In this document: piece by piece, positions 1 through 46,842 of the stretch
Layout: each line of letters starts with the position of its first letter
Position numbering within the stretch: position 1 is the stretch's first letter
From: an uncultured Clostridia bacterium
GTDB taxonomy: Bacteria; Bacillota; Clostridia; Christensenellales; UBA1242
Assembly (NCBI GenBank): GCA_947382485.1
Contig: CANCYS010000002.1
Coordinates: 1 to 64,000, forward strand
DNA length: 64,000 nucleotides
Reading direction: 5' to 3'
Translations under genes and position numbers: made by a program
The notes under the pieces: model-generated
What the model saw: the letters and a program-made list of their open reading frames with translations, nothing else
Told to the model about the DNA's origin: nothing
Database searches by the model: none

Positions 1-14
1 CCCCACGTCTCGCA

Positions 15-47
15 ACACTCTTTCCCTACACGACGCTCTTCCGATCT
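15..47 (+). other. Illumina TruSeq adapter (assembly contamination)
   Basis: The 33 bases match the end of the Illumina universal/P5 adapter exactly, beginning ACACTCTTTCCC and ending GCTCTTCCGATCT. This is not biological sequence. The 14 bases before it (1-14) probably also belong to the library construct, possibly an i5 index, although I cannot identify the index. The real contig therefore begins at about base 48, and everything upstream of the first gene is missing. Confidence 0.97.
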
Positions 48-49
48 CA

Positions 50-3000
50 AATTTAGCACTTAGAAATGGTGAAATTGAAGAACAAATGAAAGCTGCTGGT
101 GTTGATACATCTAAGATTTCGCAAGTTAGAGCTTGGCTTGATAAGAACCAAGATGTTAAAGACAACTTAGAAGTTGCTGCATCAAAAATGACTTATTTAG
201 AACTTAAAGGTATGCTTAATGGAGAATCTAATGCAGATATTTATGCAAAAGTTCAAGAAAGAGCTGCTCACAATAAGAAAGTTGATGCTTTGATGCGTGC
301 AGAGGGTGATAGCGTTACTGCTGAGCAAGCACAAGGTATGCTTGAAGGTGCTGATAAAGCTACACAAGATGCATTTATTAGTGAATATGTTGATAAAGCA
401 AATGTTATTGATCAGTCAGAACAAGAAAAACTTAGAAAAGATGCAGTTGCTACATACTTGAAGAATAAGAATGGAAAAGATGCTACTCCGGAAGAAATTG
501 CAGATGCACTTGCAAATGACGTTTCTGCTCAAAATGCTGCTGATGAGGCAATTGTTGCCGAAGCAAAGAAACGCCTTGCATCTGGTCTTGGTGGAAGAAA
601 TGCATTCGTTGTTGAAGAAATTGAAAAAAATAAAACCTTAATGAAAAAGATTGAGCAAGATTTCAGAAGAGAATTTGCTGGAATGGAGCTTGGTGAAGCA
701 GATGAACTTACAAGAAATGCATTTATTGCTAAGTATGAAAACAGGCTTAATTCTGAACTTAGTGGAAACATAAACACAGCTTACATTAATGATTTAGTAA
801 TGAAAGGTGTTATTAGTGAGGATATTAGTGGCGATCAAGATAGAATGCAAAAACTTCTTAGTGGTGCAAGTGGTTTGTCTGGTAGCGAACTTGATGCTTA
901 TCTTTTAGGAAAAGACAAACATGGAAATAATAGAATAAATGCAATTGATGAAAAAGATATTGATAAAAATCTTATTAGTCAACTTTCACAAAATGCAGGA
1001 GCATTTGGTTCTGTTTATGATTCAATGAATAAAAATCATGGTCAAGAAGGTGTTGATCTTGTTAATGGGTTAAAACGTAAATATCTTGAAAAACAACTTT
1101 CTGCTGATCATGATGCTGCACAAGATAAATATACTAAGGATCTTATTAAGAAGGAAGTTGAGAGTGATTCTACACTTAAACAGAAAGCTGATGAATTATA
1201 TAGGCTTAATCAAATTGATAATGCTGTTATGAGTGATGATAATCTTAAAGAAGATGCACAAGAACAATATTTAATTGATTTATTCAATAAAGATTTAAAT
1301 AGACATAATGGCACAGCTAAGGAAAAGAGTTTCAAAGCAACCAGAGAAAAACAACTCAAAGATTATTATCAAAAACATAGTAATGACTTTGGTCCTGGTG
1401 GATTTAAGGCTAATAGAGATGCTGTTATTGCTGCATTCATGCAAACAGGTATTGGAGAGAGCATACAAAAAGGAAACAAAGACTTTAAAGATTTAACTGT
1501 TGAGGAAAGAGCTAAATATGCAAAAGCTGCTTTGGCTAAGAATGATGCAGCAAAACTTAGTGCTATCAATAGTTCCTCACTTTTAGATGCTGGTGTTGAT
1601 GAAAATGTTAAGAACGCTGCATATGAGCAAGTCATGAAAGATGCAGGTAAGTTAGATGCTATTAAGAATATGAATATTGATGATGCAGATGCTGCAACAA
1701 AGAGTAAATATCTAAGTAATATTAGAGATATTGATATTGTTCCTGATACTGGCGAAATGTCTGCTAAGGATAAGAGAGATTTTGATTATAATAAAGGCAT
1801 GCTTACAAAACAAGTTCTTCAAGAAGGTAGAATTGATTTACTCAAAAATGTATTTGATAATACAAACATTTTAAACAAAGCAGAAATTGAAAAGAAGATT
1901 TCTGATGAGATGGCTAAGGGATTATCAAGTGAAGATGCATTTGAAAAAGTTGTAAGAGAAACTAAGGGATTACAAGATAAACTTTTATCTCTTGGAGCAC
2001 AAGATATCACTCGTTCACTTGATAAGAACACACAAGAACAGAAGAATGTTGAAGCTGTTAAGGCTTCTGCTGGATTAAAGAATGAATTGCTTGAATATAT
2101 TAAAAATCAACTTAAAAATGCAAAAGATGATAAAGAGCGTGAAAAGATACTTGATAAATACAATATTAGTAATGGTATTGGAGAAAATGATTTAACTAAA
2201 CTTGCTAATATAGATAAACTTGATATAAAGAGTTTAGATACAAAGTGGGCATATGGACAAAAACAAAATCAAGGTATGATAAATGCCATTGAAGAAATGA
2301 GCAAAAATTCTGACACATTTAAGAAATCTGTTCATGACAATGTTGTTTCAAAAGTGTCATATGCAGGCAATGCTAGTGAAGAAGAAAAACAAAGATTCTT
2401 TGAAACTGAGGCAATGAACCTATCTCCTTCAAAGGTTGAAGGCGTTCGTAAGAAAGCTAAGAATATGAAAGAAGCAATTGAACTCTTTGCACTTGAAAAT
2501 GGTGGTGGAGTTGGTGGCGTTGCTCTTGGTGCAGCAAAAGGTGTTGGACGTGGATTTAAGGCACTTGGAAAAGGTATCAAAGAAGGAACAGCACATGCAT
2601 TTAAAGGTGTATTATTCAAAGTTACTAAGAAAGCTCCTAAATATTCAACTGCTTATGATAACTGGAATAGAGAACTTCAAAAACAAATTAAAGACGTTGA
2701 AAATAACCACTTACTAACAAGAGCAGAGAAAGATGCTCAAATTAAAATTATTGAAGCTAAGAAAGTAAGATATAATGACACCGAAGCCTATGCTAAGATG
2801 TCTCCTGAGGAACAACAAGCATACAAGAAACAACAAGCTCAGAACAGACAAGAAGCTTTCCAAGCTGGAAACTTTAACTTTATTAAGAAAGTTGGTGGTG
2901 CTGTTAAGTCAGTTAAAGATGCTCATGTTCTTAAATCAGTGGCAGATAACATTGGTTATAGTATGAGATTTGCTCCATTCCAAACCGAAGATTCAAAAGT

Positions 3001-5080
3001 TAGACGTAAACAAGATATGACTAATGCAAAGGCAGATATTGATAGGTATCTTGCTGGTAAGCAAATGAGAAGCTCAGATACATTTGCAGATGATGATAAA
3101 TTTAGAAAATTTGCAGCTTCTTACGGCATGAGTCAAAAGAAGATTGAAAAGTTATTAAGTTCAGGTGGTGGAAATGCAAGACAAGATGCATTTGAACATG
3201 AACTTAACAAACGTTATCGTGTAACTTCTAAGAAGGTTGCAAAAGATAACAAAATTAATCCAAAATCATACTTTGATGGTCATGGAATTGGTGAAGAGAA
3301 TGTTAGATATAGAGAAGCTAACAAGAAATATCTTGAAGTTAAATCAACTATTCATACTCCAACTGCTCTTAAAATTTTACTTCCAGGTGTATCTCAGGCT
3401 GCATTTGCAATTGCTAGAAAAGCAACAACAGATAGCCGAATGAGAGCTATCAAAAAATATGAGTCTGATCCAGAAAAAGCATCTGAAAGACTTGCTAAAC
3501 GTTATGACAAGATTTATGGTAAGAGAACAGATGAGAGCGTAATCAGAGCACAAAATGATGTTATTAATGCTAAAAATATGATGGCTGAAATGCAGAAGTT
3601 CAACACAACATTCAAAGGATCTCAAAAAGATTATATGAATCAACTTTATGCTGAACTTTCAAAGAAATTTGGTCAAGAACTTACTAATCGAATGATGAAG
3701 AAAATCAGAAATTCTGATGGAAGCTTTGGAATTACAAATGGTTCATCACTTAAAACAAAGAGAGGTTGGGTTGGAACTGGCGATGTAACAGATTTATCAA
3801 CATATGCCATTTCAATTCAAAAGAGAGAAGTTGAAAAGATTTTGATGGATCAACTTAACCAAAACAAGAGAAGAACTCAACTTGGAAGCCGTGCAATTCC
3901 TGCTCCTGCAAGTTCTGCTGGTGAATTTATTGGTAAGACAATGACAAACGCTAAAACACAAACAGAGCTTAATAGAGATAAAATTAATGCAGAACACTTG
4001 AATAAGATGCTTAGTCAAATTTCAAGTCAAAAGAATTTAGTTTCATATAATACTGCAACAAGGTCTTCTAATAGTTCAATTGATAGTGCAACACTTCAAC
4101 AATTTGAAAGAAAATACGCTAAAAAACTTGCTAATGCAGATGATCCTACAAAAATGGAACTTCTTCAACAGTTCTTACGCAAAGAGCTTGAAAAAGCTAA
4201 TAACAGAGTTCACAATAATGGCTTTGCAAAGAGCAGAAAGAGTGAGCTTGAAAAACTTAATGGTATTTATATTGATAGAAAAGAAATTAACCATAGCGGA
4301 CTTTCTGCATCAATGATGACTGCCATTAAGACTCAAAATAGTGAAGTTTACAAGAACCTCACAAAACAATACAATTCTGCTAATGCTAAACATTTAACAG
4401 AACAAATTAACTATAATCAACTTGCAGCTTCGCTTAAAAACTTACAAGGCTTACCAGCAAGTCCTGAAATTAGAAAAGAAATTGCAAAAACTAAGAGAGC
4501 AATTGCTGAATCTGAAATTAAACTTAAAAACTTAAAGACTTTGGTTGACCAAACCAGAGCTCGTAAAGTTGACTACGAAAAGGCATTCGCTGATAAGCAA
4601 ATTAAGCAATCAAAAGTTGAAAATAGAAATGTTGGATATAACACTTCAACCAAGATTACTGATAGATACACAGTTCCATATAGACGTGATGGTGTTCAAG
4701 GACAAGTTATTCCAGGAAGTCAACTCGAAAAAGAAGTTAACAGACTTATGTCTCAATTCATTCAATCTCATAAGAGTGAACTTCAAAAACTTAGAACTCA
4801 AAATATTGATGCCCAAGATATTAAGAGAATTGTTGATAATGCTTCTTACAGGTTATCAAATGACTTCAAACAAAATCTTTACAACAATAAGAACCTTATC
4901 AAGTCTATTGAAAGAAAACTTAAATCAGATATTGAAAAGGGTGTTTCAAAGAATCGTAAGACCAATGAAAATCTTAACGATACTAGAAAGAAACTTATTC
5001 AAATGGAAGATCAGTTAAAGCTTGAGCTCAGAAAACTCGGCATTGAACTCGACGACATTAAACTTAAAACAGATAAATAA
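50..5080 (+). CDS. Giant lysine-rich coiled-coil protein, 5'-truncated, T4SS-like locus
   Basis: The reading frame is open from the adapter junction. The codons before the first in-frame ATG (86) also read as plausible protein (NLALRNGEIEEQ), so the N-terminus is lost and at least 1676 residues remain. I recognise no catalytic family. The protein is highly charged (K, E, D, N, Q), predicted almost entirely helical, and has no convincing membrane segment. A short Gly/Ala-rich stretch lies near residues 810-835 counted from base 86 (GGGVGGVALGAAKGVGRG). It is the first gene of a same-strand set with a VirB4-type ATPase and two VirB6-like proteins, so a structural or cytoplasmic role in that apparatus is inferred. 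It could be the cytoplasmic tail of a third VirB6-like protein, since the two downstream VirB6-like proteins also end in basic, charged tails, or it could be a secreted substrate. The function is unknown. Confidence 0.85.
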   Translation, partial: NLALRNGEIEEQMKAAGVDTSKISQVRAWLDKNQDVKDNLEVAASKMTYLELKGMLNGESNADIYAKVQERAAHNKKVDALMRAEGDSVTAEQAQGMLEGADKATQDAFISEYVDKANVIDQSEQEKLRKDAVATYLKNKNGKDATPEEIADALANDVSAQNAADEAIVAEAKKRLASGLGGRNAFVVEEIEKNKTLMKKIEQDFRREFAGMELGEADELTRNAFIAKYENRLNSELSGNINTAYINDLVMKGVISEDISGDQDRMQKLLSGASGLSGSELDAYLLGKDKHGNNRINAIDEKDIDKNLISQLSQNAGAFGSVYDSMNKNHGQEGVDLVNGLKRKYLEKQLSADHDAAQDKYTKDLIKKEVESDSTLKQKADELYRLNQIDNAVMSDDNLKEDAQEQYLIDLFNKDLNRHNGTAKEKSFKATREKQLKDYYQKHSNDFGPGGFKANRDAVIAAFMQTGIGESIQKGNKDFKDLTVEERAKYAKAALAKNDAAKLSAINSSSLLDAGVDENVKNAAYEQVMKDAGKLDAIKNMNIDDADAATKSKYLSNIRDIDIVPDTGEMSAKDKRDFDYNKGMLTKQVLQEGRIDLLKNVFDNTNILNKAEIEKKISDEMAKGLSSEDAFEKVVRETKGLQDKLLSLGAQDITRSLDKNTQEQKNVEAVKASAGLKNELLEYIKNQLKNAKDDKEREKILDKYNISNGIGENDLTKLANIDKLDIKSLDTKWAYGQKQNQGMINAIEEMSKNSDTFKKSVHDNVVSKVSYAGNASEEEKQRFFETEAMNLSPSKVEGVRKKAKNMKEAIELFALENGGGVGGVALGAAKGVGRGFKALGKGIKEGTAHAFKGVLFKVTKKAPKYSTAYDNWNRELQKQIKDVENNHLLTRAEKDAQIKIIEAKKVRYNDTEAYAKMSPEEQQAYKKQQAQNRQEAFQAGNFNFIKKVGGAVKSVKDAHVLKSVADNIGYSMRFAPFQTEDSKVRRKQDMTNAKADIDRYLAGKQMRSSDTFADDDKFRKFAASYGMSQKKIEKLLSSGGGNARQDAFEHELNKRYRVTSKKVAKDNKINPKSYFDGHGIGEENVRYREANKKYLEVKSTIHTPTALKILLPGVSQAAFAIARKATTDSRMRAIKKYESDPEKASERLAKRYDKIYGKRTDESVIRAQNDVINAKNMMAEMQKFNTTFKGSQKDYMNQLYAELSKKFGQELTNRMMKKIRNSDGSFGITNGSSLKTKRGWVGTGDVTDLSTYAISIQKREVEKILMDQLNQNKRRTQLGSRAIPAPASSAGEFIGKTMTNAKTQTELNRDKINAEHLNKMLSQISSQKNLVSYNTATRSSNSSIDSATLQQFERKYAKKLANADDPTKMELLQQFLRKELEKANNRVHNNGFAKSRKSELEKLNGIYIDRKEINHSGLSASMMTAIKTQNSEVYKNLTKQYNSANAKHLTEQINYNQLAASLKNLQGLPASPEIRKEIAKTKRAIAESEIKLKNLKTLVDQTRARKVDYEKAFADKQIKQSKVENRNVGYNTSTKITDRYTVPYRRDGVQGQVIPGSQLEKEVNRLMSQFIQSHKSELQKLRTQNIDAQDIKRIVDNASYRLSNDFKQNLYNNKNLIKSIERKLKSDIEKGVSKNRKTNENLNDTRKKLIQMEDQLKLELRKLGIELDDIKLKTDK

Positions 5081-5095
5081 TATTAATTTAGTTTA

Positions 5096-5124
5096 GCTTT
5101 TGCCGTGAATTTCACGGCAAAAGC
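5096..5124 (+). other. Perfect intercistronic hairpin before the VirB4-like gene
   Basis: GCTTTTGCCGTGA (5096-5108), a 3-base loop and TCACGGCAAAAGC (5112-5124) form a perfect 13-bp stem. A flanking TTTAGT...ACTAAA pair (about 5089-5130) can extend it. It lies between the stop at 5080 and the ribosome site of the next gene. No T-tract follows, so it is not a classic terminator. An mRNA processing or stabilising element, or a protein-binding site that adjusts the ratio of the two proteins, is more likely. Confidence 0.8.
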
Positions 5125-5171
5125 ACACTAAATTGTGTTATGTGAAATTACTGAAAAGGAGAAATTAATTT

Positions 5172-7856
5172 ATGTCAAGAATGATTCCAAAATCCACAAA
5201 AGTCAAAACGCAATTATTTAAAGGTTTGAACTTTTCGGATATATTTGTAGTCCTATTTGCATTGATTATTATTGCACTTGCTATGACAAGTGGTTTTGCG
5301 TTGATTCCAAAACTTGTAATTTCAGGTATAACCTTATTTATAACTGTTGCAATGTTTATGAGTTTTGAACCAGGCGTAAGACTTTATATGCAAGTTGGAG
5401 ACTTGTTTAAATATTTGTTTGGCATAAATACATACAAAAAGACAAAAGGTAATTCTAAAAAAAGTGTTGCTAATTTGATGCCATACAATGGTATTTTAGA
5501 ACAAGATTACGATGAGAAGCGTCAAATTGGTATTATTGATTATAAGGATTATTTTGGTGCAGCAATTGAAATTAATAGTATTCAATTTTATATGCTTTCT
5601 GAATCAAGACAAAATACTTATGTAGAAACATTAGAAAGTGCCTTTAAAACAATTTCTCCTGAAGATCTTGGTGCTCTTTATAAATTTGCCAGACCAATGG
5701 TTTTCGATAATTATATTGACAACGAATGTAAAAAAAGAGAGGAAATTTTAAATTCTGTTCGTAATGGTTCAACAAATATTAATGAAGCAAGACCTCGTCT
5801 TGAAATTGCAGAAGCTAGAATTGCAAATCTTGAATCTATGAACGTTGATAGTGAATTTCCTGTTTATAAAGATCATATATATCTTGCGTTTTATTGTGCG
5901 AACATTAGAAACTTACTTCAAGTTGTAAACTTTGTTGCAAGTACAATTGAAAGTGGTTCTGGTGGTTCAATGCAATGTAAAATTCTTGATAGAAAAGATA
6001 CAGCAGTATTCTTGAAAAGTTATTATTCAAGTAATTTTGATGAAAGAGAAGTAAAATCGATTGATCCAAAAGATTTAATGAAATGGATTATGCCAGAAAA
6101 GGTAAGTTTTGGTTTAAACAAAGTTGCGATTGATGGAAGATCATTCTCATATTTTCAACTTTCAGAATATCCAATTGCAGTTCCAAATGCTTGGGGAAGA
6201 GTATTTTTCTCAGTTCCTGGTGCTAGAATTTGTGTAAAATTTAAACCAATTGATCAGGCAGTTGCAGAAAAACGACTTGACAGATCAATTATGGACGTTA
6301 GAATTCAGGCTTCAAGTGGAAGTGGAAAAGCATCTGCACAACTTGAAGTTCAAACACACCTTCAAACACTCACTGAACTTTTACAATATGTTAAACAAGG
6401 TTCAGAAGTTTTGATGGATACAAACATCTATATGATGGTTGAACAAGAACAAAAGAAAGCGTTTAGAACACAAATTATGAGAGCAGGTTTTAGAGCGTAT
6501 GACTTGTTTGGAAAGCAAAAAGAGGCTTTCACAAACTGTAATGTTTCAAGACGTATGACTCTTAAAAAGTTTGAAAGAGGTATAAACTCTTCATCTCTCG
6601 CTGCAATTTTCCCATTCGTTTCTGATGCTATTCAAGACCCTAAGGGATTTTATGTTGGTATGAATAGTGAACCTGTATTTTTGGATTTCTTCCAAAGAGA
6701 TACAGAAAGAATTAACTCAAACATGGTTATTATTGGTAAGTCTGGTTGTGGTAAGTCATTCTGTACAAAATCACTTCTTGCAAACCTTGCTGCTGATAAT
6801 AGTAAAATTTTCATTCTTGACCCTGAAAAAGAATACGACATCATTGCTCGAAATATGTATGGTAAAGTTATTGATGTAGGTTCTGCTAGGGAAGGTCGTA
6901 TTAACCCACTTCAAGTTAATGCATCACAAGATGATGAAGATAGTGCTAGTGGAAATGTTTCTCTTGCTATGCACATGCAGTTCCTTGAAACATTCTTTGG
7001 AATGATTTTGGAAGGCATTACAATGGACGGAATGGAACTTTTGAATGAAGCATTAAAAGAACTTTATGCTAAATTTGGTATTAATAATTCTACTCAAATT
7101 GAAAATGTTAAACCAGAGCAGTTCCCAATCATGCAAGACCTTTACAATTATATTTGTGAAAAACATGATAATGCTACTGATGATTATAATAGGAATAATT
7201 ATAAGATTCTTAAAATTTATCTTAATAAATTCGCAGAAGGTGGACGTAATGCTGTTCTTTGGAATGGACCATCAACAATATCTTCTGCCGAAAACTTCAT
7301 TGTATTTAACTTCCAGTCACTTCTTGCAAATAATGCTGGTGCTGTCGCTAATGCACAAATGTTGCTTATCATGAGATGGCTTAATAATGAAGTTATTAAT
7401 AACAAAGACTACAATGCTAGATTCCATTGTAAGAGAAAAGTTATTGTAGTTATCGATGAGGCTCACGTATTTATTGACCCTAAACAAACAATTGCGCTTG
7501 ACTTTATGCAACAGATGGCTAAACGTATCAGAAAGTATGAAGGTATGCAAGTTGTTATTACACAAAATATTAAAGACTTTACTGGTTCGCCTGAAATTGC
7601 TAGAAAATCAACTGCGATTATTAATGCTTGTCAATATTCACTTATATTCTCACTTGCCCCACAAGACATTTCAGACCTTGTTCTTCTTTATGAAAAAGCA
7701 GGTAAGATTAATGAAAAAGAGCAAGACACAATTGTAACTAACCCAAGAGGACGTGCATTCATTATGACAAGTTCTTATTCAAGAACTAATGTAGATATCT
7801 TGGTTAATGACAGAATTCGTAATTTATTTGAAAAATTGCGTGATGACGTTAAATAA
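5172..7856 (+). CDS. VirB3/PrgI-VirB4 fusion ATPase of a type IV secretion-like system
   Basis: An 894-residue protein. Residues 15-70 hold two hydrophobic segments and resemble the small PrgI/VirB3 inner-membrane component. The rest is a VirB4/TraE/PrgJ-type AAA ATPase. The Walker A is GKSGCGKS at about residues 522-529, and the Walker B is VIVVIDEAH with Asp762-Glu763. VirB4 ATPases energise assembly of and transport through type IV secretion machines at the cytoplasmic membrane, and natural VirB3-VirB4 fusions are known in other systems. The gene has a good ribosome site (AAGGAG at 5156-5161) and lies between a giant charged protein and two VirB6-like membrane proteins, with a 46-base gap to the next gene. 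No coupling ATPase (VirD4) or relaxase is visible in the window, so a DNA-conjugation role is not supported here. Base composition matches the neighbouring core genes. Confidence 0.9.
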   Translation: MSRMIPKSTKVKTQLFKGLNFSDIFVVLFALIIIALAMTSGFALIPKLVISGITLFITVAMFMSFEPGVRLYMQVGDLFKYLFGINTYKKTKGNSKKSVANLMPYNGILEQDYDEKRQIGIIDYKDYFGAAIEINSIQFYMLSESRQNTYVETLESAFKTISPEDLGALYKFARPMVFDNYIDNECKKREEILNSVRNGSTNINEARPRLEIAEARIANLESMNVDSEFPVYKDHIYLAFYCANIRNLLQVVNFVASTIESGSGGSMQCKILDRKDTAVFLKSYYSSNFDEREVKSIDPKDLMKWIMPEKVSFGLNKVAIDGRSFSYFQLSEYPIAVPNAWGRVFFSVPGARICVKFKPIDQAVAEKRLDRSIMDVRIQASSGSGKASAQLEVQTHLQTLTELLQYVKQGSEVLMDTNIYMMVEQEQKKAFRTQIMRAGFRAYDLFGKQKEAFTNCNVSRRMTLKKFERGINSSSLAAIFPFVSDAIQDPKGFYVGMNSEPVFLDFFQRDTERINSNMVIIGKSGCGKSFCTKSLLANLAADNSKIFILDPEKEYDIIARNMYGKVIDVGSAREGRINPLQVNASQDDEDSASGNVSLAMHMQFLETFFGMILEGITMDGMELLNEALKELYAKFGINNSTQIENVKPEQFPIMQDLYNYICEKHDNATDDYNRNNYKILKIYLNKFAEGGRNAVLWNGPSTISSAENFIVFNFQSLLANNAGAVANAQMLLIMRWLNNEVINNKDYNARFHCKRKVIVVIDEAHVFIDPKQTIALDFMQQMAKRIRKYEGMQVVITQNIKDFTGSPEIARKSTAIINACQYSLIFSLAPQDISDLVLLYEKAGKINEKEQDTIVTNPRGRAFIMTSSYSRTNVDILVNDRIRNLFEKLRDDVK

Positions 7857-7902
7857 CAAAAGAAAATTAAAGTAAAAAAACAACATAGGAGAAAAACTAG
7901 AT

Positions 7903-13900: not shown

Positions 13901-16900
13901 TGGATCTTATTTTGATGTATGAATATCAAAGAAATTTAACAACTCCAAACTATTTTGCAGGAAAATTGTTTAGTGAACTTACATCTGATGATAATTTGCC
14001 TGTTTTTGCAAATGAAGATAAGTCTGAAATTGCATTTACTGTCAATGGTTCAGTATATAAATTGAATTATAAATTTGAAGATGAAAGTGTTGCAGAAGGT
14101 GACGAAAATAGATTTAAAATTATTGATGTTAATACTAAACTTAAAGATATAGATAAAAAGTATCTTGATTATGAAAAGATTTTTGTTAAATCAAATTCGA
14201 GTGATTCAAATTTGAAGATTTTGCATTCAACAACAGATTTTGTTTTAATTTCAAATGACAACTCATTTGTTGAACCAAATGGTCAAATGTCAATTTCAAT
14301 TACTGATAATGATAGAAATATTTTAATAAAGGTTGATAATAACATTTATACAAACTATCGTGTTATGTTCTATGCACTTGATAATTACACAATAAGCCCA
14401 CTTGTTCGTGAAGTTAACTGGCCACAGAAATTGATGAATGATATGCAAGTTATTTATCCGGATCTTAACTGGAATACACTTATTGCAACTGATGGTTGGC
14501 TTGACACTCTTGGAGATTTTTCATCTGCATATGCCTCAGGAGAATTTGAATCTGAGGGAAATTCATCAAACATAACAGCTGCTGGTTTAGTATTATCAGA
14601 ATTCTTCTTAACTATTGCAAGTGAATCAAATTCTGATTATGCAAAATATAATTACAACCCAATTTTTGATCAAGAAACAATCAAAGCATTGATTCTTGCA
14701 ATAATGGGTGAAGATGAATATGAAAATCTTGTTCTTCAATCAAAGATTTTCATTGATATGTTCAATTCAATGTTTTCAACAGTTCTTGATGATATTGCTC
14801 GTGAAAATGGATATCAAATTGTTGATGGAAAAGTTGATAATTTTACAATGTGTGTTTACAAATCATATCTTGCAACTGTGCTTTTGTCATCAGATATGGG
14901 CGAGTATTTCTATAAAATAGCAACCAGAGTTTATGCACAATATACAATCTATGAATCTCTTGCTGCTGCAAGTGGTGATTATGCAATGTATTATGCATAC
15001 ATCAATGGACTAACTGATGAATTTGGAAATGTTGTTGACACATTCACATATTCAACATTTAAAGATTTAGTAATTTATGAAAACAAAAAAGCTGGAAAAA
15101 TTGTTCCAACTTTCACATTCAACTATAATAATGTTTATCAATATTTCAAATCAAATGGAACATTGCAAAGAGAAACTGGTATAACAGTATTACCAAATGA
15201 AGATACAAACTATGAATATTATAACTCAGTCTTGAAACTTCTTGATAAAGAATATAATAGAATTTATCTTGAAGGTAACAGGTCTAGTGTTTCTGACAAT
15301 AGTTCAATTTATTGTTACTTGCTTGATGCTTATTATTCAATGGTTCAATCAGCAGGAAGACCAACTACTTACATGAGTATTTACCATGATTATATTATGG
15401 GTAAAATTGCAAGATGGAGCATTGTTGATGGCGTAAGTGTTACAAATGGTTCAAGCTTAATTAAAAATTATAACAAATTTTTAACACAAAGAACTATTAT
15501 TAAATTCTTGATTATCCCAGCATATTTAAGATTATTTGTTCCTGATGATATTGATGTTGAATATAATGGCGATTCTGACCAATATGAAAAAGATATGAAT
15601 GCTGCAATTGGTGATTTACAAATTGGTATTGGAACAAACTATGCTTTAATGGAACAAGTGTTTGGAAGCAGTTTATATAGAGATACATTCAATAATGCTT
15701 TCGGAAATGGCGGATTTAGTGCTATTAAAGATATTTTTGAACTTATTCTTGGAACAATAAACAAATCTGAAAATGGCGATGCTGTTGCTTGGGAAAAACT
15801 TAATAAATTGGTAAAAGATATTTCAACATTACAAAATGAATTTAGTAATGTTATGAAATTGAGTACTGGTGCAATTACTGAAAATGGTTCAATTAAAGTT
15901 AATGCAGAAGATGAATATTATAAAAATGTTTATAGCAATCTTGAATCATTAAGTAATTTCATTAACACTTATGTTGGATTACAAAACAAATTGGATATAA
16001 TAACAAAAACTAGCATAACATATTCACTTGCACAATTTAGTCATAATTATATTCCAGATGGTTATGTGTTCCATATGGAAAATAGAACATATACACTTAG
16101 TTCATATCTTTCAACTACACGTATTGCAGAATATGTTTATGGTGGAAGTTTCCTTGAAAGTTTTGGTGTTGGTGCAGAATTCACTAGCCCAGACTTTGAT
16201 GGATTTATTCAAAGAACAAAAACTTATGATAGCAAAGATAACATGGTTAAATCAAAACTTTATATCTGGGAAGGTATGAGAACTTTTGCTTCAAAACTTG
16301 CAAATTATACCGCTAGAATGTACTATTTAACCAACTTTAATGACCTATCTGGAAATGTTAGTGATTCAGTTTATTTGTCAGATGTTATAGGAGTTGTTGG
16401 AAGCACAAATCTAACAACAATTGAATATCAAATTTTAAAATATTTGATGAATGCAGAAGATATTGCTTTTTCAACAGACACACTTATTGCTTTACTTTAT
16501 AAAGATACAGTTAATAGTTTAAGTAACTTATTTAGTATTGCGGGTGATAATTTAAGTAAAGATAATCGTGATTTAATGATGAAATTAGCAAGGTATCTTG
16601 AAGGTAAAGACTCTATAACAGAAGAGGAAAAAAGACAAGCCCTTGAAACTTATATTAATTTCGTAGTTTCAGATCTATATAATTCATCAGGAAAGTATAT
16701 CAGTAACTCTTGGTCTGGAAGAATTCATGAAATGTTTAAGAATATGATTTCATATCTTCTTATAAATGAAGAAACAGACGAATCAAAGCCAGCACAAACT
16801 GTTGACCTTGATAACATAACCATGAAAGAATTTAAACTTTTATTGATGGACAGAATTGTGGATTATGAACAAAATCCATCTGAAACTTCAAAAGAAAATA

Positions 16901-18726
16901 CATCTAGATATATTGCAATGTTTAACCTTATTAGTGGACATGTAAATTACACTTATAAAGAAAGTTCAACAAAATTTAATGATATCGGAAGAACGGTTGG
17001 TTCGGCTTATTTAAGAAGAATCATATCTGAGGGTGTAGCAACTGCTAAGTATAGATACAAAAATTCGGATTATGATTTATTTGGTGAATTTGTAATTGAT
17101 AAGGCAACAAGAAATTTAGTTATTGAACTTGCTGGAATTTCTAATAGACCACTTGAAGAACTTGTTGGTTTGGAGTATGGTAGTATCTATGATACAAATG
17201 GAAATTATGACGAGGCACTTGGTGATACATTTGTATTATGTTCTTTTGATGAAATTACTGGAAAGTATGTTCCATTTATGGCTGCAAGTTCATCTGCTTC
17301 ATTTGCCGAAGGTAGTGGTTATAATCAATATGTAAGACAATATGGTTCAACTCTTCATGTTAAAGATTTACATACTGAATATTATGCAAATGAAAGAGGT
17401 GAAGCGGTTGCATATCCAATTGTTGCAAAAGGTTTAATTTCTGCAACTGGACTTCCAACAGCAATCAGAATTGTTGATTATAATGTTCAATTTTATAGAA
17501 CAAACATCACAGCAACAACATCTCTTGATGAAGGTGCAATGAAAACAGCAAGATTAACATCTGAAAGCAAAACTATTGGTTATACAAAGTTTGTTGAAAC
17601 AACATCAAAATCAGATATTACAGATAGAAAGAAAGCTAGATTTATTGGTAGTTCAGATATTTCATTCTTCTTGAATTCTGGGGCATCAGTGTACTATATG
17701 CAATATGGAACAAGTTACAATATAACAGGTGAAGATAGTTCAATTTCTGTACTTGATGGTATTGAAAACTTCTATAAAATTGGTATGATGGAATATTTCA
17801 TGATTGCACTTGGTATAGCAGTTACAATGCCTATATTGTTTAAAGTTACGGCACTGGTTATGAGGCGTATACTTGATCTTATATTCTTGACGCTTGCAGG
17901 TCCATTGATGATTTCAATGAATACGCTGAATTATGAAGGTCAAACATCTGCTTCAAACAAAGCATTTGAGCAATGGAAAACATATTTGACACAAACACTC
18001 TTATTTGTATTTGGTTACATAATGGGTATTAATATTTATTATATATTGATTTCAACCATAACAAATATGACGTTTGTTTCTGCATCAACTGTTTCAAAAA
18101 TATCTGCAATTGGTGGACTTAGCTTTGTAAATGCATCATCACTTAATATGATTGTTAAATTTATATTCATTGCTGTTGCTGCTGGTACAATCAAAGTTTC
18201 TGCCGATATGCTTGCGTCAATCATTACAACAGGCAAAGTTAGCAAGGCATTTGAATCACCAATGGGTGGTGACGTTATGGGTGGAGTTAAAGGTGTCATT
18301 GACTCAGTTAAAGACACTGGCAAAAAGGCAAGAGATGCTATTAGTGGAAAAACTCTTCTCGAAGCAAAAGATGCCGCAGTTGCAGGTGCTAAAAACATGA
18401 TTCCTGGTTCTGCAATAATACAGAAAGGTGTTGATATAAAGAACAAGGTTCAAACCGCAGCAAAGGCGAAAGCACTTGAAAAAGGTTTAGAGGCATATGG
18501 AGTTCCTCCTGAGGTTGCGAAAAAAGCTGCTCAAATGTACAAAAAGAATGAAAATGATCAACGTGAAGCAAAGAAGAGAAGACAAAGAGAAAATGTTAAA
18601 AACTTTGCTGAAAAACACAATTTAAAAGAACTTGTTAGCGACGATTCAAAAAGCAAAAAGAGTAAAAAAGAAAAGAAAAACAAAAAACCTAAGAAGAAAA
18701 AACAAAAGAAAGATAAGAAAAAATAA
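7903..18726 (+). CDS. Giant VirB6/TrbL-like membrane protein with ~2,900-residue insertion
   Basis: A 3607-residue protein starting at an ATG behind AGGAG. Layout: hydrophobic segments at about residues 15-75, 92-125 and 148-180; the motif YRSYANTNKRIPIV at 201; YQVMADFIDYA at about 289; a very long Asn/Tyr/Asp/Ser-rich region to about 3170; ISATG followed by PTAIR at about 3178; a C-terminal membrane bundle at about 3294-3445 containing RRILDLIFLTLAGPLMISM; and a basic cytoplasmic tail of about 160 residues ending in poly-Lys. The bundle resembles VirB6/TrbL channel subunits. The flanking motifs recur in the next gene, which shows that the middle is an insertion in one loop, most likely outside the cell. 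Ten Trp-centred repeats occupy residues about 425-2000. Extended VirB6 proteins are known in Rickettsiales type IV systems; homology to those extensions is not claimed. Role inferred: channel subunit with a large surface-exposed domain for contact or substrate guidance. Confidence 0.85.
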   Translation: MFNLFSNLTNIVSTGTVSSFLSASFIFKFIGTFITNIFNIVLDFLMRVIWYIISFIFGIMEAFEYIINSFLGIGTTLNDAYTFINQNNSKWVNSLIDVFKAIVAVAIVLLIIFTIYAIIKQEMDNAFKEGQSNGVGNSKKNILLKAFRNIMSIILLPVTMVFIISGVNSILTAFSNALKGGSNVTVAGQVLISSTYDANRYRSYANTNKRIPIVISAYDVNDYGSDQNDLLKLDIQSIEVQNKLINTATMMSKGSYLTFNQSLLYKNNKLINNVNFGDYYENFVCTAEQYQVMADFIDYAQKNNINFYIKALDEVDIEWKYVDSTVFEPSSNSLTISYRDASDLDNDGNTNDNYSITYSMSYNVTSPISDSLKSILALLGVGEYSDNLYKVMERDENFTNVVQWANEKVWLQLSEKFNYNDLSSWTDTDQIIMFEYYRPNSDLSKYTVDNLKEGIELDAYQIVYQKFSNGLYVGEETINSVLLNGNYYRVEKSKTLSDAYGNLYYLLSSIDGGNFLENAYTTITKTANSTELKTSKDFDINDVSTWTYSDQVLIYEYFKNTSYENSLRKYDFFYYTQDNISNIKPSFKIYKIENYTRNKIGEDFVCSSGDDCYYVLLNGTYYQVTGSDSNATLFNSNTDTNFMNVDSGYIGQRYLYTLSGNQAFTDKVGINLSGTNTLESNFVIENLVESYFNLDIDTYIRENFGDDVDIQEFDKYFNFEYKFSKNFKFNDVKTWTYRDYFIFYLVVKYRNLAGSASIESIKEMSLSGNVGVITTGEHKGEFVYRVSYTDVSNNTKFIYLKIDDLRLISEELMTISVDFEKTFSKNNFTSNNGDLLISNNGNTYDTLYNNEVNARQFIFSEEFDEYRTQTWTVTDFLLYYFSKINRINSLSDIKSNGYNALVSVVTDTTYGTREVFRFGKNDTAFYVDSAKVLNITDVNGNSLTFKNIDEWLNMKLIDFICRKLNLTEKQLIADETGVIGNIFDDYSQNVLSSAEIISEILKQSGFHLTSANKFDISKNPEIYNYVNENFKEAELDTWNYMDFLLYKIFSENNKTYRGSANGNVIIHDNKKYFIVDNLGIDITDCTLKSDYRITSEKLDNFDIQSIIFTEQNLLSKNLVLYIDQTFSYTYFSSNNTVFDRILKKYFSNMSNNATIKFNVYTDGNDNYIRVVLKDGTSIFVKTDDGNAVLLNTNLSKLELKGLLSTGAFVSNGEYKSFQENKYTKVDAMIYKLLGKSNENKFPESQNYKIYVASGKKYILVGEEYIECVDNLTIYNKEQFAAMIGASFDGSLNEVLVEYLYKNIYSKYVYKNIELTRTNYDFLNVKLTEFEIDDINTWSPLNIILYYLGFTDSYFSNSDLYYRDDNYNIYQSVRIYELDSDGNKIDDNYTEYYIRLDEILVVDQEESDYWSGPDSPDPENGYTCLMDDPSSLANAELLYNLSLITKLSGKIGSEEEFYANIDTYREKYLTFHKYIDSLKADSTTLLFESRVKNVSDLYSRYEINNNMSLSDPSTWNFFTMLYYYYMKTPLLTDNKFLVYTNSQNARYYAFSTDLGTYYIKNIENDVFSQGIDEVVEYSGSILNLTTLGIVVNNLTQLKQATIKKFTIAGFTFYYLKDNLNNDKIIYGLPDRSLDYAESNNELSYRTENSGTLEDWSIFDYILYYVNGNAGLNNYSTKIYLINNDYYFKLNSQDIYLNITKLIDTNKISRNDKVLTINNISGNNFKNLLGRNNVKLIKNIDDLSYNDADKILEWSKVFKEVDELSKYYLSDNFNVNDFSTWTYSDFIIYYYFHQEGYFDGIINFQEIINQGYVEVSIGYIITEDEMGVMRCTKVISFAGNIENQTNVPFYIRYDVLNDLSNRKLSINDIHRIDSGIVNISIKESHIDSSTLNGSSNSGQYNKVTDNFNFEYVTITNSSVIDFKYYNNYYFKIYTELVDGNVIAPEYDKLFPSLSGSNLNVVSEAFKAEILSGKAKQYEEFPEINMKLSEGYKIDDPSTWTILDLILMYEYQRNLTTPNYFAGKLFSELTSDDNLPVFANEDKSEIAFTVNGSVYKLNYKFEDESVAEGDENRFKIIDVNTKLKDIDKKYLDYEKIFVKSNSSDSNLKILHSTTDFVLISNDNSFVEPNGQMSISITDNDRNILIKVDNNIYTNYRVMFYALDNYTISPLVREVNWPQKLMNDMQVIYPDLNWNTLIATDGWLDTLGDFSSAYASGEFESEGNSSNITAAGLVLSEFFLTIASESNSDYAKYNYNPIFDQETIKALILAIMGEDEYENLVLQSKIFIDMFNSMFSTVLDDIARENGYQIVDGKVDNFTMCVYKSYLATVLLSSDMGEYFYKIATRVYAQYTIYESLAAASGDYAMYYAYINGLTDEFGNVVDTFTYSTFKDLVIYENKKAGKIVPTFTFNYNNVYQYFKSNGTLQRETGITVLPNEDTNYEYYNSVLKLLDKEYNRIYLEGNRSSVSDNSSIYCYLLDAYYSMVQSAGRPTTYMSIYHDYIMGKIARWSIVDGVSVTNGSSLIKNYNKFLTQRTIIKFLIIPAYLRLFVPDDIDVEYNGDSDQYEKDMNAAIGDLQIGIGTNYALMEQVFGSSLYRDTFNNAFGNGGFSAIKDIFELILGTINKSENGDAVAWEKLNKLVKDISTLQNEFSNVMKLSTGAITENGSIKVNAEDEYYKNVYSNLESLSNFINTYVGLQNKLDIITKTSITYSLAQFSHNYIPDGYVFHMENRTYTLSSYLSTTRIAEYVYGGSFLESFGVGAEFTSPDFDGFIQRTKTYDSKDNMVKSKLYIWEGMRTFASKLANYTARMYYLTNFNDLSGNVSDSVYLSDVIGVVGSTNLTTIEYQILKYLMNAEDIAFSTDTLIALLYKDTVNSLSNLFSIAGDNLSKDNRDLMMKLARYLEGKDSITEEEKRQALETYINFVVSDLYNSSGKYISNSWSGRIHEMFKNMISYLLINEETDESKPAQTVDLDNITMKEFKLLLMDRIVDYEQNPSETSKENTSRYIAMFNLISGHVNYTYKESSTKFNDIGRTVGSAYLRRIISEGVATAKYRYKNSDYDLFGEFVIDKATRNLVIELAGISNRPLEELVGLEYGSIYDTNGNYDEALGDTFVLCSFDEITGKYVPFMAASSSASFAEGSGYNQYVRQYGSTLHVKDLHTEYYANERGEAVAYPIVAKGLISATGLPTAIRIVDYNVQFYRTNITATTSLDEGAMKTARLTSESKTIGYTKFVETTSKSDITDRKKARFIGSSDISFFLNSGASVYYMQYGTSYNITGEDSSISVLDGIENFYKIGMMEYFMIALGIAVTMPILFKVTALVMRRILDLIFLTLAGPLMISMNTLNYEGQTSASNKAFEQWKTYLTQTLLFVFGYIMGINIYYILISTITNMTFVSASTVSKISAIGGLSFVNASSLNMIVKFIFIAVAAGTIKVSADMLASIITTGKVSKAFESPMGGDVMGGVKGVIDSVKDTGKKARDAISGKTLLEAKDAAVAGAKNMIPGSAIIQKGVDIKNKVQTAAKAKALEKGLEAYGVPPEVAKKAAQMYKKNENDQREAKKRRQRENVKNFAEKHNLKELVSDDSKSKKSKKEKKNKKPKKKKQKKDKKK
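9157..13930 (+). repeat. Ten divergent TWT-x2-D-F/Y-hydrophobic-YY repeats within the giant protein
   Basis: A motif of the form D-x-S-TWT-x2-D-x3-hydrophobic-YY recurs with its Trp at residues 425, 546, 735, 871, 1038, 1337, 1514, 1654, 1779 and 1997. Examples are VSTWTYSDQVLIYEYF, FSTWTYSDFIIYYYFH and PSTWTILDLILMYEY. A Trp-less relative lies near residue 1225 (KVDAMIYKLLGK). Spacing is mostly 120-220 residues. DNA copies are not alike, so these are old, diverged protein-domain repeats and not recent tandem duplications. I know of no named family with this motif. Confidence 0.85.
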
Positions 18727-18755
18727 AATATAAACATCACACAGGAGAAAAATAG

Positions 18756-21700
18756 ATGGTAGTAAATATGATAAATAATATGCCACAAGCGTTTATGAAC
18801 TTTGTTTCATCTATTTTTCCTGTGGGTGCTAATGCTTCAAACTATGTTGGAGCCGCAAGTGTTGCAACAGGTTTTAGCAAATTTATAAATATCTTAGCGG
18901 AAATTTTCTATTTTGTATGTAAATGGATGCTTTATGTAGTAGATGTTCTGTTTTCATACATACAACAACTTGCAGGTCTTGACATGAAATATGATTCTCT
19001 TGAAAGTCTTGTTTCAGAAGATTCAGACATGGTGTTTAATTTATTGTTATCTAATAAATCAAATTTGGTAATAATAATAAAAAATCTGCTCGCACTTGCA
19101 GTTGTTTTGATTATATTATTCTCAATTATTGCTGTTATAAAAGGACAGTTTGAAGCTGTTCACAGTGGAAAAGCAACATCTGTTTCATCAGTTTTGAAAA
19201 ACACTTTAAAATCATTTGCTTTATTATTAGTTACACCAATGATTGCAATTGTTGGTATAATTGCTTCAAATTTAATATTGCAGTCACTTTATGCTGCGAC
19301 AAATACTTCTGGTGCATTTTCACTTAGCACGCAGATATTCTATGCATCGTCCACAACGGCGAATTGTTATCGAAATTATGCTGATAATGGAAAAAGAATA
19401 CCAATTGTGTTTAATACGACAGTTGAAGATGAAATAAAAAAGTATTATGATTCTAATGGTTTAACGCAAGAGTATATAGATTATATAAAAAATGCGAACA
19501 ACTATATTTATTATTCATCACATTTAATGTTTGAAACAGGAAACTTTGTTACTTATGATTCACTTGATACATTAAGTGGAATGAATCCAGATGCTTCACA
19601 GGCTCAAACAGCTTATTATGTTGCTTATGACATTGATGGCACTTCATCTTCTAAGTATAAAAGAATCGAAAACTATGCTGTTGAATATTATGTTATGGCA
19701 GATGTAATTGAATTTTGTATCAATTCATCTAGACCAGCATATTTTAAAACAATAGAAGAAGTTTTAGAAAGTATCGCTGATTATGCAAAATATAATCCTG
19801 ATGCAGGAACAGAGTTGTTTTATCAAGTAACTCAAATGTTTAATATCCAATTTTTGGACGATAATGAAATTGCAATTCCAGCGGTAGGAAAATATAAGTC
19901 TATGCTAGATGTATTCAATAGTAGAGACTGGAATATAATTAGATTTAGTTCAATTTATCTTGCACCTGATAATGCAGGTGATCCAGTGGTTAGAATGCAA
20001 ATTCAATATAATCACTTAAAAGGTCAAACTGATGAACTTAGTGGTGCAAAATATATTATGGCCGTTGAAAAATCAATGGGTAATTTCCAGTATTTTTATC
20101 CTTTAACAAATGGTGAAGCTGGAACAAGTAGCATGAATTTTGATTCAAGCAATCTTTATAGTGGTATGATTTCTGCAAAGGGTGTTTTTGATGAATCTGT
20201 TTACCCAACAGCAATCAGACAAGATGCATATTCCAATATTGAGTTTTATAGAGAAAAAATTCAGGCTTCATTAATTGGTGATACTAGTGGATTGTTATCT
20301 TTTGATTTTAAACAAGAAGATAGTGATGAAGGTGCTTCAAGCATTGTTTCAATTATTAAATCAATAATAGACCCATCGTCAATGGTACCTAACTTCCAGT
20401 TTGACTCATCTGCTGTTCAACTTGATTATGCAAAAGAAGTAAAAACAGTTACTACATTAACTGGTGGAAGATTACATATTGGATATTTATTTTCAGATGT
20501 ATTGACTTCTGCTGTAAATAAATCATTATATACAATGGAATTAGGGCATTTGTATAATCCATATAGCTTGAATTTCCTAATTTTAGTTGTAGGTACAATA
20601 TTAATTTTAAAGACATGTCTATTTTCAATATTCTCTTTGGTTCAAAGAGCGTATGATTTATTCTTGGTAATTTTAGTTTATCCGACGGCCTGTGCAACAA
20701 TACCATTAGATAATGGTGGTTACAATTCTTGGGTGAAAACGTATTTTTCTAAATTATTCTCAACTTATGGCTTAATTCTGGGATTAAATTTCGTTTTGAT
20801 GTTATTCCCAGTTATTCAAAATATAAGTTTCTTCTCACCGCAAGATATTGCAACAAATAAATCAATAAGAAGACTTGGTTCCATTTTGTTTGGATTTTTA
20901 ACTGTGAATCAGGTTACTAATATGCTTAACTTAGTTGTATGTATATTATTTGAACTTGTTGCATTCACACTCATAAAAACTATTCCAGAAACAATTTCAA
21001 AGATAGTTGGTGCAAATGATGTGAATCAAACAAATGTACTTCAAGATATTGTTAAGACTGCAAAAACAACTATGAAAGTAATGAGAACAATCATTCCAAC
21101 AAATCTCGTAAGATTACCTTTAAAATTTGCAACAAATAAAAAGTTTAGAAATGAAGCAATTGCTAAGGTGACGGGTAAGGTTGGTTCTTTGAAAGATTTG
21201 ATTCCTGGAAGTGCATTATATACAGCTGTATTAGACAAAAAGAATCTTAATAACAAAAAGAGAGAACAGAAAGAAAAATATAATGACTTAAAAGAATCAT
21301 TAGATAGTGGTTCTGCATCAAAGGAAGAAGTTGAAGAAAAATTAAAGGCTTTTCAATCTGCACAACAAAGTTATACAAATGCGATGAATGATCCAACTGC
21401 AGATAGGAAAGCAGAACATCAAAAGAAAAAGAAAGAAGACGAAACTGGTTTAAGTTCTAGAGAAGATGATGATCTTGATGAGAACAAAATTGATGAGTCA
21501 GCAAAAACAACAAGACAAATCAAAAAAGATCAGAAGAAGTCAAAAAAGATTTTGAAAAAACTCAAAAAGAAAGAAAAGAAAGAAGGTTTAACAGAAGAAG
21601 AAAAGAAATCTCAGCAAACTTACACCAAGTTAAAAGAAGCCGCAGATGAAGAAAGAGAAAATAGAAAAGGCGAAAAGAAAGGTGTTAAGAGTGCGAAGAA

Positions 21701-22700
21701 AGATGTTAAAAAGTTAAATAGAAAACTTAATCGTGGAGATTATCTTACTGATGAAGAAGAACAAAAGCTTCATGCAAGTGAGAAAGTTCTTGAAAATCAA
21801 GGTGCTCAAAAAGTTGAAAGAAAGGAAAAAATAAAAGAGCAAAAATTAAGACTTAAAGAACAAAGAAAAGATAAAAAACAAAAATTGGAAGAAGAACAAG
21901 ATAAACAAGACGATTATAAACTTTTTAGACACACTGGAAACAAAAAGGCTCAAAGACTAAGGCTTGAAGAAATAGATAGAGATCGTTCAAGATTAAGCAA
22001 AAGATTGCAAAAAATGGGATTTAGCCAAGATATTTCACATATGAGTGGCGAAGAAATTGAAAAACTTTTAGATAATCCAGAAGCAAATGGTCTTAATTCT
22101 GAACAAGTTAAGTTAATAAATGAATATCAAAAAATTGATAAACATAAAAATGAATTAATAAATATAAACGCATTAGAATATGAAAATAAAGCAAAAAGAA
22201 AGCAAGAAGTTAAAAATGCTAAAAATGATAAGATTGCGGGTTATCGTGGTATTAATTTCATTAAACATATACAGAAACATAATTTAAACAAAAAAGCTGT
22301 AAAAGCAGAAAAACAACAAGAACAACTTGCTATCTTAGATGAAAAAATTGATCAAATGCAACAATCTGGAACTAATACATATACTGGATTTAATCCTGCT
22401 AAAAACATTGCTAGTATGATTCAGTACAAAAAGTATAAGAGTTTACAAAGAAAGCGTTCAAAACTTAGTACAAATATAAATACTTCACAAAATTGGATTA
22501 GCCATAACAATTCTGAGTATAGAAAAGAATATAAGGCGGGTGCAAAAGATAGATCAAACGAAAACAAGTGGAGAAAACAGGCAATTAAATATTTGGAAGA
22601 TAATGGAATAGAAGTTAATTCTGCAAATATTGAAAGGGCAATGCAATCAAAAAGGGCATTTGAAAATAAAAAAAATCAAGATAACCAAGACAAGAAATAG
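18756..22700 (+). CDS. VirB6/TrbL-like membrane protein with long coiled-coil tail
   Basis: A 1314-residue protein behind AGGAG (18743-18747), 29 bases after the giant gene. Hydrophobic segments lie at about residues 45-75, 105-130 and 145-175, then an outside loop of about 400 residues, then a second membrane bundle at about 600-755 containing RAYDLFLVILVYPTACATIP, followed by a Lys/Glu-rich cytoplasmic coiled coil of about 550 residues. It is a paralogue of the preceding gene: YRNYADNGKRIPIV (205), YYVMADVIEFC (311) and GMISAKG followed by PTAIR and FYREKIQA (about 470-500) all have counterparts there in the same order. Both tails also share an IPGSA motif just inside the membrane. It ends the operon, before the terminator at 22740. 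Predicted role: inner-membrane channel component. Confidence 0.85.
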   Translation: MVVNMINNMPQAFMNFVSSIFPVGANASNYVGAASVATGFSKFINILAEIFYFVCKWMLYVVDVLFSYIQQLAGLDMKYDSLESLVSEDSDMVFNLLLSNKSNLVIIIKNLLALAVVLIILFSIIAVIKGQFEAVHSGKATSVSSVLKNTLKSFALLLVTPMIAIVGIIASNLILQSLYAATNTSGAFSLSTQIFYASSTTANCYRNYADNGKRIPIVFNTTVEDEIKKYYDSNGLTQEYIDYIKNANNYIYYSSHLMFETGNFVTYDSLDTLSGMNPDASQAQTAYYVAYDIDGTSSSKYKRIENYAVEYYVMADVIEFCINSSRPAYFKTIEEVLESIADYAKYNPDAGTELFYQVTQMFNIQFLDDNEIAIPAVGKYKSMLDVFNSRDWNIIRFSSIYLAPDNAGDPVVRMQIQYNHLKGQTDELSGAKYIMAVEKSMGNFQYFYPLTNGEAGTSSMNFDSSNLYSGMISAKGVFDESVYPTAIRQDAYSNIEFYREKIQASLIGDTSGLLSFDFKQEDSDEGASSIVSIIKSIIDPSSMVPNFQFDSSAVQLDYAKEVKTVTTLTGGRLHIGYLFSDVLTSAVNKSLYTMELGHLYNPYSLNFLILVVGTILILKTCLFSIFSLVQRAYDLFLVILVYPTACATIPLDNGGYNSWVKTYFSKLFSTYGLILGLNFVLMLFPVIQNISFFSPQDIATNKSIRRLGSILFGFLTVNQVTNMLNLVVCILFELVAFTLIKTIPETISKIVGANDVNQTNVLQDIVKTAKTTMKVMRTIIPTNLVRLPLKFATNKKFRNEAIAKVTGKVGSLKDLIPGSALYTAVLDKKNLNNKKREQKEKYNDLKESLDSGSASKEEVEEKLKAFQSAQQSYTNAMNDPTADRKAEHQKKKKEDETGLSSREDDDLDENKIDESAKTTRQIKKDQKKSKKILKKLKKKEKKEGLTEEEKKSQQTYTKLKEAADEERENRKGEKKGVKSAKKDVKKLNRKLNRGDYLTDEEEQKLHASEKVLENQGAQKVERKEKIKEQKLRLKEQRKDKKQKLEEEQDKQDDYKLFRHTGNKKAQRLRLEEIDRDRSRLSKRLQKMGFSQDISHMSGEEIEKLLDNPEANGLNSEQVKLINEYQKIDKHKNELININALEYENKAKRKQEVKNAKNDKIAGYRGINFIKHIQKHNLNKKAVKAEKQQEQLAILDEKIDQMQQSGTNTYTGFNPAKNIASMIQYKKYKSLQRKRSKLSTNINTSQNWISHNNSEYRKEYKAGAKDRSNENKWRKQAIKYLEDNGIEVNSANIERAMQSKRAFENKKNQDNQDKK

Positions 22701-46833: not shown

Positions 46834-46842
46834 GGAGAAGTT

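Follow-up and report, generated by a model that had tools for sequence, protein, structure and literature searches.

We analysed a window of 64,000 nucleotides (the whole stretch from position 1 to 64,000 of contig CANCYS010000002.1, assembly GCA_947382485.1) from an uncultured Clostridia bacterium of the GTDB family UBA1242. Positions 48-22700 of this window hold most of a type IV secretion system (T4SS) locus, with all open reading frames (ORFs) on the plus strand and at the positions that an earlier note, made from the sequence alone, had given for them, while the front of the locus lies at the end of another contig, C4, of the same genome (G000). The features of the two parts, with the evidence for each in brackets, are the following:

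Window 1-47, no strand: adapter-derived assembly artefact (TruSeq universal adapter at 15-47; a matching adapter caps the end of contig C4).
Window 48-5080, plus strand: VirB6a, only its C-terminal coiled-coil tail, predicted to be cytoplasmic (27% identity to the VirB6a tail of the related genome G005, E 9e-93).
Window 5172-7856, plus strand: VirB4 ATPase, 894 aa, with a probable N-terminal VirB3/PrgI-like membrane segment (NF045975; Walker A/B).
Window 7903-18726, plus strand: VirB6b, 3607 aa, a transmembrane (TM) core split by a giant, predicted exofacial insertion and followed by a K/R-rich, putatively cytoplasmic tail (NF045848/NF045889).
Window 8485-17763, plus strand: predicted exofacial domain of VirB6b, residues 195-3287, about 3,090 aa (comparison with VirB6 of integrative and conjugative elements (ICEs); hydropathy).
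Window 9121-14322, plus strand: about 10 divergent repeats within the predicted exofacial domain of VirB6b (motif D..TW[TS]..D.[IL][IL].Y).
Window 18756-22700, plus strand: VirB6c, 1314 aa, with a predicted exofacial part at about residues 191-595 and a tail from about 781 (NF045848, E 5e-21; comparison with ICE VirB6; modelled TM helices).
Window 22740-22765, plus strand: intrinsic terminator closing the operon, with an 11-bp stem and a T tail (1 found vs 0.0 expected).
G000:C4:86113-88203, minus strand: surface protein, beside VirD4.
G000:C4:88221-90188, minus strand: VirD4 coupling protein (87% identical to the G005 copy).
G000:C4:90411-90710, plus strand: pilin 1.
G000:C4:90945-91289, plus strand: pilin 2 (NF045849 (Mbov_0395), 47.0 bits vs a cut-off of 40).
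G000:C4:91712 to about 97733 (contig end): N-terminal part of VirB6a, with the TM core, the predicted exofacial domain and the start of the tail.

Because an Illumina adapter caps both broken ends of the VirB6a gene (window 15-47 and, as the opposite adapter, G000:C4 near 97734-97780), its truncation is an assembly break and not a biological gene end. The first residues of the window ORF, PTSRNTLSLHDALPIS, are spurious and adapter-derived (window 1..47), and the middle of VirB6a is missing from this assembly. A truncated mobile element was considered and rejected on the evidence of the adapters and of relatives that carry the full locus: in G005 (4106 aa), G002, G004 and G028 one unbroken ORF of 1,840-6,796 aa, immediately preceding VirB4, encodes VirB6a. 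The truncated giant coiled-coil protein described in the earlier note is indeed coiled-coil and truncated at its 5' end, but it is the putatively cytoplasmic tail of a third VirB6, cut by the assembly break. In the window's genus the locus runs as a surface protein and VirD4, divergent from pilin-pilin-VirB6a-VirB4-VirB6b-VirB6c. The suspicion that the missing upstream sequence might hold the remaining parts was therefore well founded, as VirD4, the two pilins, the surface protein and the N-terminal part of VirB6a are all located there, whereas the hint that there might be no coupling protein was not; neither a relaxase nor an integrase is present in this upstream part. The proper terminator at the other end of the locus had been recognised correctly, and so had the adjacent lspA (22822-23289, followed by rluD) and a base composition like that of the core genes (29.9% GC in the locus vs 30.1% elsewhere in the window). 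Synteny with lspA holds in the window's genus but only there, gap/mnmA being the commoner neighbour elsewhere.

The sequence of VirB4 leaves its identity in no doubt. Besides P-loop_TraG (E 5e-20), it matches the NCBIfam model NF045975, 'Mbov_0397 family ICE conjugal transfer ATPase', at E 3e-176 (residues 5-886 on model positions 3-893). It is homologous to Mbov_0397, the Mycoplasma ICE ATPase, over nearly its whole length, and its score of 587.6 bits lies just under the curated cut-off of 590. The Walker A and B residues are invariant across 22 VirB4 homologues, and Walker A is intact in 150/150 VirB4 and 50/50 VirD4 sequences; the nearest plasmid VirB4s, those of Spiroplasma foremost, are at most about 35% identical. 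Most homologues have two hydrophobic segments at the VirB4 N-terminus, and sub-threshold PrgI matches were obtained for three of eight such N-termini. Because the similarity to PrgI is weak, we regard a VirB3-like N-terminus fused to VirB4 as likely, not proven, and in the 'VirB3-VirB4 fusion ATPase' of the earlier note the VirB4 half is secure and the VirB3 half plausible. The VirD4 of G005 is a standard T4SS coupling protein (E 8e-43). As for the pilins, the second pilin of the window's own genome passes the NF045849 cut-off, and four pilins from the family matched PF18895 (T4SS_pilin) with E values between 5e-4 and 2e-6, a single one exceeding the cut-off (28.3 vs 26.6). The pilin by its score, and VirB6 and VirB4 as homologues that score below the cut-offs, correspond to the three families that make up the Mycoplasma/Spiroplasma ICE module (Mbov_0395 pilin-like, Mbov_0396 VirB6-like, Mbov_0397 VirB4; ICEA of M. 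agalactiae), and the order pilin-VirB6-VirB4 is shared as well, as is VirD4. Unlike that module, the resident UBA1242 machine has no transposase, integrase or relaxase, is fixed in the chromosome and, in the window's genus, has three giant VirB6 copies.

The distribution of the machine was assessed in 196 UBA1242 genomes at least 90% complete, representing 38 genera; all genomes compared are draft assemblies. VirB4 was found in 190 of them and VirD4 in 191, both in all 38 genera, and every genome has at least one of the two. The absences of VirB4 and VirD4 do not overlap, as expected from assembly gaps, and the patchy presence typical of a mobile element was not seen. With a query taken from the family's own ICEs, an ICE-type relaxase was found in 47/196 genomes (13 genera) and was not detected in the other 149, the window's own genome included; a sample of 22 UBA1242 genomes yielded no relaxase of the MobA_MobL or Rep_trans families, and the window's genome has neither. 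Across 24 further families in the order, three sampled genomes had a full-length VirB4, each time with a relaxase in the same locus.

Some UBA1242 genomes carry, in fact, a second copy of the machine in an ICE layout, with a relaxase, VirD4, a surface protein of about 1,480 aa, a pilin, a VirB6 of about 467 aa and VirB4, so that mobile and resident versions coexist in the family and sometimes within one genome. The relaxase is of the MobP type (the MobP2 match is sub-threshold, E 2e-26), and an integrase or serine recombinases follow VirB4 in several cases. These MobP-type ICEs, which occur in UBA1242 and in sister families (G019:C7, G033:C2, G105 and others), have VirD4, surface protein, pilin, VirB6 and VirB4 homologous to those of the resident form, but differ from it in lying on one strand, in their relaxase and recombinase, in their patchy occurrence, in their short VirB6 and in their separate VirB4 clade. 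The resident form has a divergent VirD4, no relaxase and no reference-type tyrosine or serine recombinase; of the 23 resident loci that have VirD4 nearby, 14 also have gap/mnmA in the neighbourhood, compared with 0/8 ICE loci, and in some genera VirB4 is located apart from the VirD4-pilin-VirB6 block.

A tree of 47 VirB4 sequences, rooted on two sister-family ICEs, places 35 resident VirB4s in one clade beside the ICE copies (support 83/95), and a larger tree of 128 sequences agrees. Two apparently resident VirB4s (L024, L109) fell inside the ICE clade; they have short flanks and look like ICE copies. Distances among resident VirB4s correlate with the distances calculated for Der, a GTPase (Mantel r 0.85, 0/5000 permutations), also with one genome per genus (r 0.65, 0/5000 permutations), and well-supported Der groupings mostly recur in the resident VirB4 tree. 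Together with near-universal presence and resident loci free of relaxase and integrase, this congruence bears out the proposal of the earlier note that the machine is resident and vertically inherited, not a conjugative element. We also observed IME-like (integrative and mobilizable element) relaxase units without a T4SS of their own (L173/L174, at about 395-400 kb of G005:C1, L220 and L221). An integrase or a serine recombinase lies near them, and their host genomes also have the resident T4SS, which such units might hijack.

The two ORFs downstream of VirB4 had been taken for VirB6-like membrane proteins of 3607 and 1314 residues, an assignment that holds: VirB6b and VirB6c are both similar to the Mbov_0396/MMCAP2_0566 VirB6-like family, with the match split over two separate regions. 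The NF045848/NF045889 scores of these split matches (75.2/55.2 bits for VirB6c, 53.9/41.9 bits for VirB6b) are below the cut-offs of 90/70, whereas the UBA1242 ICE VirB6 scores 161.1/120.5 bits, above both. Pfam alone gave nothing significant in the giants, TrbL (PF04610) failing to detect the VirB6 proteins of their own genome; it was the NCBIfam ICE families and comparison with ICE VirB6 that detected them. Every giant VirB6 aligns to the 467-aa ICE VirB6 in two blocks that meet at about positions 135-200, with one insertion between them. In VirB6b the two high-scoring pairs cover residues 33-194 and 3287-3570, and the insertion falls at ICE VirB6 position 155-187. Within the genus the insertion measures about 910-985 aa in VirB6a, 3,070-3,400 aa in VirB6b and 360-450 aa in VirB6c; it is about 85-410 aa in most other residents, and there is almost none in ICE VirB6s. 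Hydropathy puts three TM segments before the insertion and three or four after it. The insert contains much N, S, T, Y and Q but little K and R, and the tails are charged, a pattern that suggests an exofacial insert and a cytoplasmic tail. An AlphaFold2 model of VirB6c has a mean pLDDT (predicted local distance difference test) of 58, with 70-86 in the TM helices, and a model of the repeat unit is poor (mean pLDDT 59). Clear copies of the tryptophan-motif repeats in the putative exofacial domain of VirB6b (9121-14322) occur only within the window's genus, and the repeats match no known family. Within the genus the VirB6 inserts are 32-41% identical and the TM cores 37-68%, compared with 80-88% for VirB4 (Der, 70-82%) and 79-87% for VirD4, so that, judged by sequence identity, a conserved engine is paired with a fast-diverging surface.

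Across the family VirB6 forms a graded series from 467 to 6,796 aa. A trio of giants is confined to the sub-clade around the window's genus; elsewhere in the family there is a single VirB6 or a pair, about 750-1,600 aa long and, in one small lineage, up to 2,400 aa. The idea that giants always accompany this VirB4 clade had to be given up. Most other resident loci have a surface protein of about 2,500-2,900 aa beside VirD4, and a lipoprotein (about 570-850 aa) often separates their pilin from VirB6. The giant clade has a shorter surface protein, of about 560-725 aa, and no lipoprotein was found between pilin and VirB6. On our interpretation, it looks as if surface mass has moved from separate proteins into VirB6. 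The large surface protein of most resident loci examined (L230-L232, L042-L043, L236) is a single-pass protein and a possible adhesin. In other genera, large soluble proteins of about 730-1,940 aa, mostly without TM segments, lie directly downstream of VirB4 (L167, L159, L165, L162, L175, L176) and are possible substrates or accessory proteins.

Two other systems invite comparison. The T4SS of Patescibacteria, which has pilins but no relaxase, is indispensable when these bacteria grow as epibionts (PMC12102498, PMC12857230); it shares with the UBA1242 resident machine the absence of a relaxase, a chromosomal and near lineage-wide presence, an MPF-FATA-like core, probably PF18895-type pilins, and a reduced genome that goes with a partner-dependent life, a predicted one in UBA1242 (PMC12102498). 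It differs in that no VirB3-VirB4 fusion was found there, whereas VirB4 of UBA1242 carries the weakly PrgI-similar, VirB3-like N-terminus; in UBA1242, moreover, VirD4 is near-universal (and in the same locus in the window's genus), a giant VirB6 trio is present and the host lineage is independent. In the host-dependent Rickettsiales, several giant VirB6 paralogues adjoin VirB3-VirB4 (Anaplasma VirB6-1 to -4, up to 9,935 aa) and large parts of the extended VirB6 proteins are surface-exposed (PMC7648143), but these are diderms with a terminal VirB6 extension, unlike the single, putatively exofacial loop insertion plus cytoplasmic tail of these Clostridia. Our literature search on Christensenellales with T4SS returned nothing relevant.

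We consider it fairly probable that a conjugation-type T4SS was domesticated once in this family, has been inherited vertically and is used for contact-dependent exchange with partner cells. A T4SS related to the Mycoplasma ICE machinery would have been captured once, at or near the root of UBA1242, would have lost its relaxase and integrase and would then have become a core chromosomal function. VirB4 and VirD4 would power a contact-dependent translocation machine, as T4SS logic and the Patescibacteria precedent suggest, whose components in membrane and envelope would be the two pilins and the three VirB6 proteins. The VirB6 proteins with their large exofacial domains, together with the surface protein beside VirD4, would reach, recognise and hold the partner cell, and material, most likely protein and possibly metabolites or DNA, would pass between the cells. 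Conserved motors with fast-diverging, presumably exofacial parts would fit the recognition of varied partners. What our data establish is the gene content, the homology, the fixation and vertical descent of the locus, the lack of known relaxases and the one insertion point of the giants; the exofacial side, the assembly, the contact with a partner, the substrate and the direction of transfer are deductions. Several points weigh against this proposal: no substrate, effector signal or partner was identified; no VirB1 peptidoglycan hydrolase or VirB8 was identified among the locus proteins scanned in the genus, which were a part of the total, and passage through the wall is unexplained; the support for the resident clade is good, not decisive; the exofacial orientation is deduced from hydropathy, charge and composition; the moderately confident VirB6c model had no significant PDB match; and ComEC, which would permit DNA uptake, is kept in each of the 22 UBA1242 genomes sampled. 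The two matches of that model to VirB6 of R388 (E 6.5) and to Legionella DotA-IcmX (E 4.6), among five insignificant structure matches, were not counted as evidence. Only tentatively would we go further and suggest that the machine is the physical link by which UBA1242 obtains metabolites, a second and independent essential 'feeding' T4SS after that of Patescibacteria, with the giant exofacial VirB6 domains as an extracellular channel or tether replacing separate adhesins.

Two of the alternatives involve DNA. The resident machine could still serve as a conjugation pore in trans, with IMEs, ICEs or unrecognised relaxases feeding DNA to the resident VirD4: units of a MobP relaxase, excisionase and integrase without a T4SS do occur in some UBA1242 genomes (G005:C1 near 396-398 kb, G135, G196), and Mycoplasma ICEs of this family transfer DNA, chromosomal DNA included (PMC12857230). 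We find this unlikely, since 149 of the 196 genomes, the window's own included, have no detectable MobP2-type relaxase, nearly all genomes keep the machine, and the sampled genomes yielded neither MobA_MobL nor Rep_trans. A DNA-uptake system like the ComB T4SS of H. pylori, feeding ComEC for nucleotides or recombination, seems improbable too. It would agree with the presence of ComEC in 22/22 sampled genomes (about 7-9 kb from VirD4 in genus members), with a full-length PilB/ComGA-type ATPase in only 2/22 genomes and with the reported lack of nucleotide synthesis in UBA1242 (PMC12306168). However, sister families that have no resident T4SS also commonly possess ComEC but no full T2SSE ATPase, a non-specific pattern that led us to reject the argument that it proves uptake by the T4SS, and in Southlakia epibionticum loss of comEC ended competence but not viability (PMC12857230).

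Injection of toxins or effectors into competitors or animal cells, for antagonism or virulence and not nutrition, could draw on the recruitment of protein substrates by VirD4 coupling proteins in many T4SSs, on a Gram-positive precedent, S. suis 89K (PMC12857230), and on the fast divergence of the predicted exofacial domains, which would fit arms races. As none of the genes beside the locus in the genus was recognised as encoding a toxin, an immunity protein or an effector, we think it quite improbable. That the locus is an immobilised, decaying ICE without a present role is very improbable indeed, because fixation and conservation contradict it. The kinship with ICE modules is clear and relaxase and integrase are missing, as such decay would have it, but the giant ORFs are intact, the ATPase motifs are invariant, the machine is near-universal in genomes of about 1 Mb, and VirB4 is more conserved within the genus than Der.

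The family of gut bacteria to which the domesticated machine would belong, and of which Candidatus Caccopulliclostridium is a genus (PMC8035907), has genomes of about 1 Mb. A 2025 study portrays it as having no pathways for amino acid, nucleotide and lipid synthesis and no standard uptake transporters, and as probably living in obligate symbiosis or parasitism, with its metabolites arriving 'via intercellular connections' (PMC12306168); the text consulted names no T4SS or other machine for these connections. The same source terms sporulation in UBA1242 unexpected. Our window, from a genome of about 1.1 Mb of a predicted partner-dependent bacterium, does hold sporulation genes (45991-48315, 53277-54425, 57142-58632) for SpoIIGA, sporulation-type sigma factors, SpoIIP and a full SpoIVA.

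A December 2025 review described the Patescibacteria T4SS as unique among monoderms in being required for growth on a host and having the potential to make a pilus, and called the role of extended VirB6 proteins unknown (PMC12857230). UBA1242, an unrelated lineage within the Clostridia, is a second monoderm lineage in which a relaxase-less, pilin-bearing and near-universal T4SS goes together with a predicted partner-dependent life. Because mobile and resident versions coexist in one family, with VirB6 ranging from 467 to 6,796 aa, the family lends itself to a parallel study of domestication and VirB6 gigantism. The locus is also a concrete candidate for the unnamed intercellular connections of UBA1242, and a testable one for how these bacteria may touch and exploit other cells.

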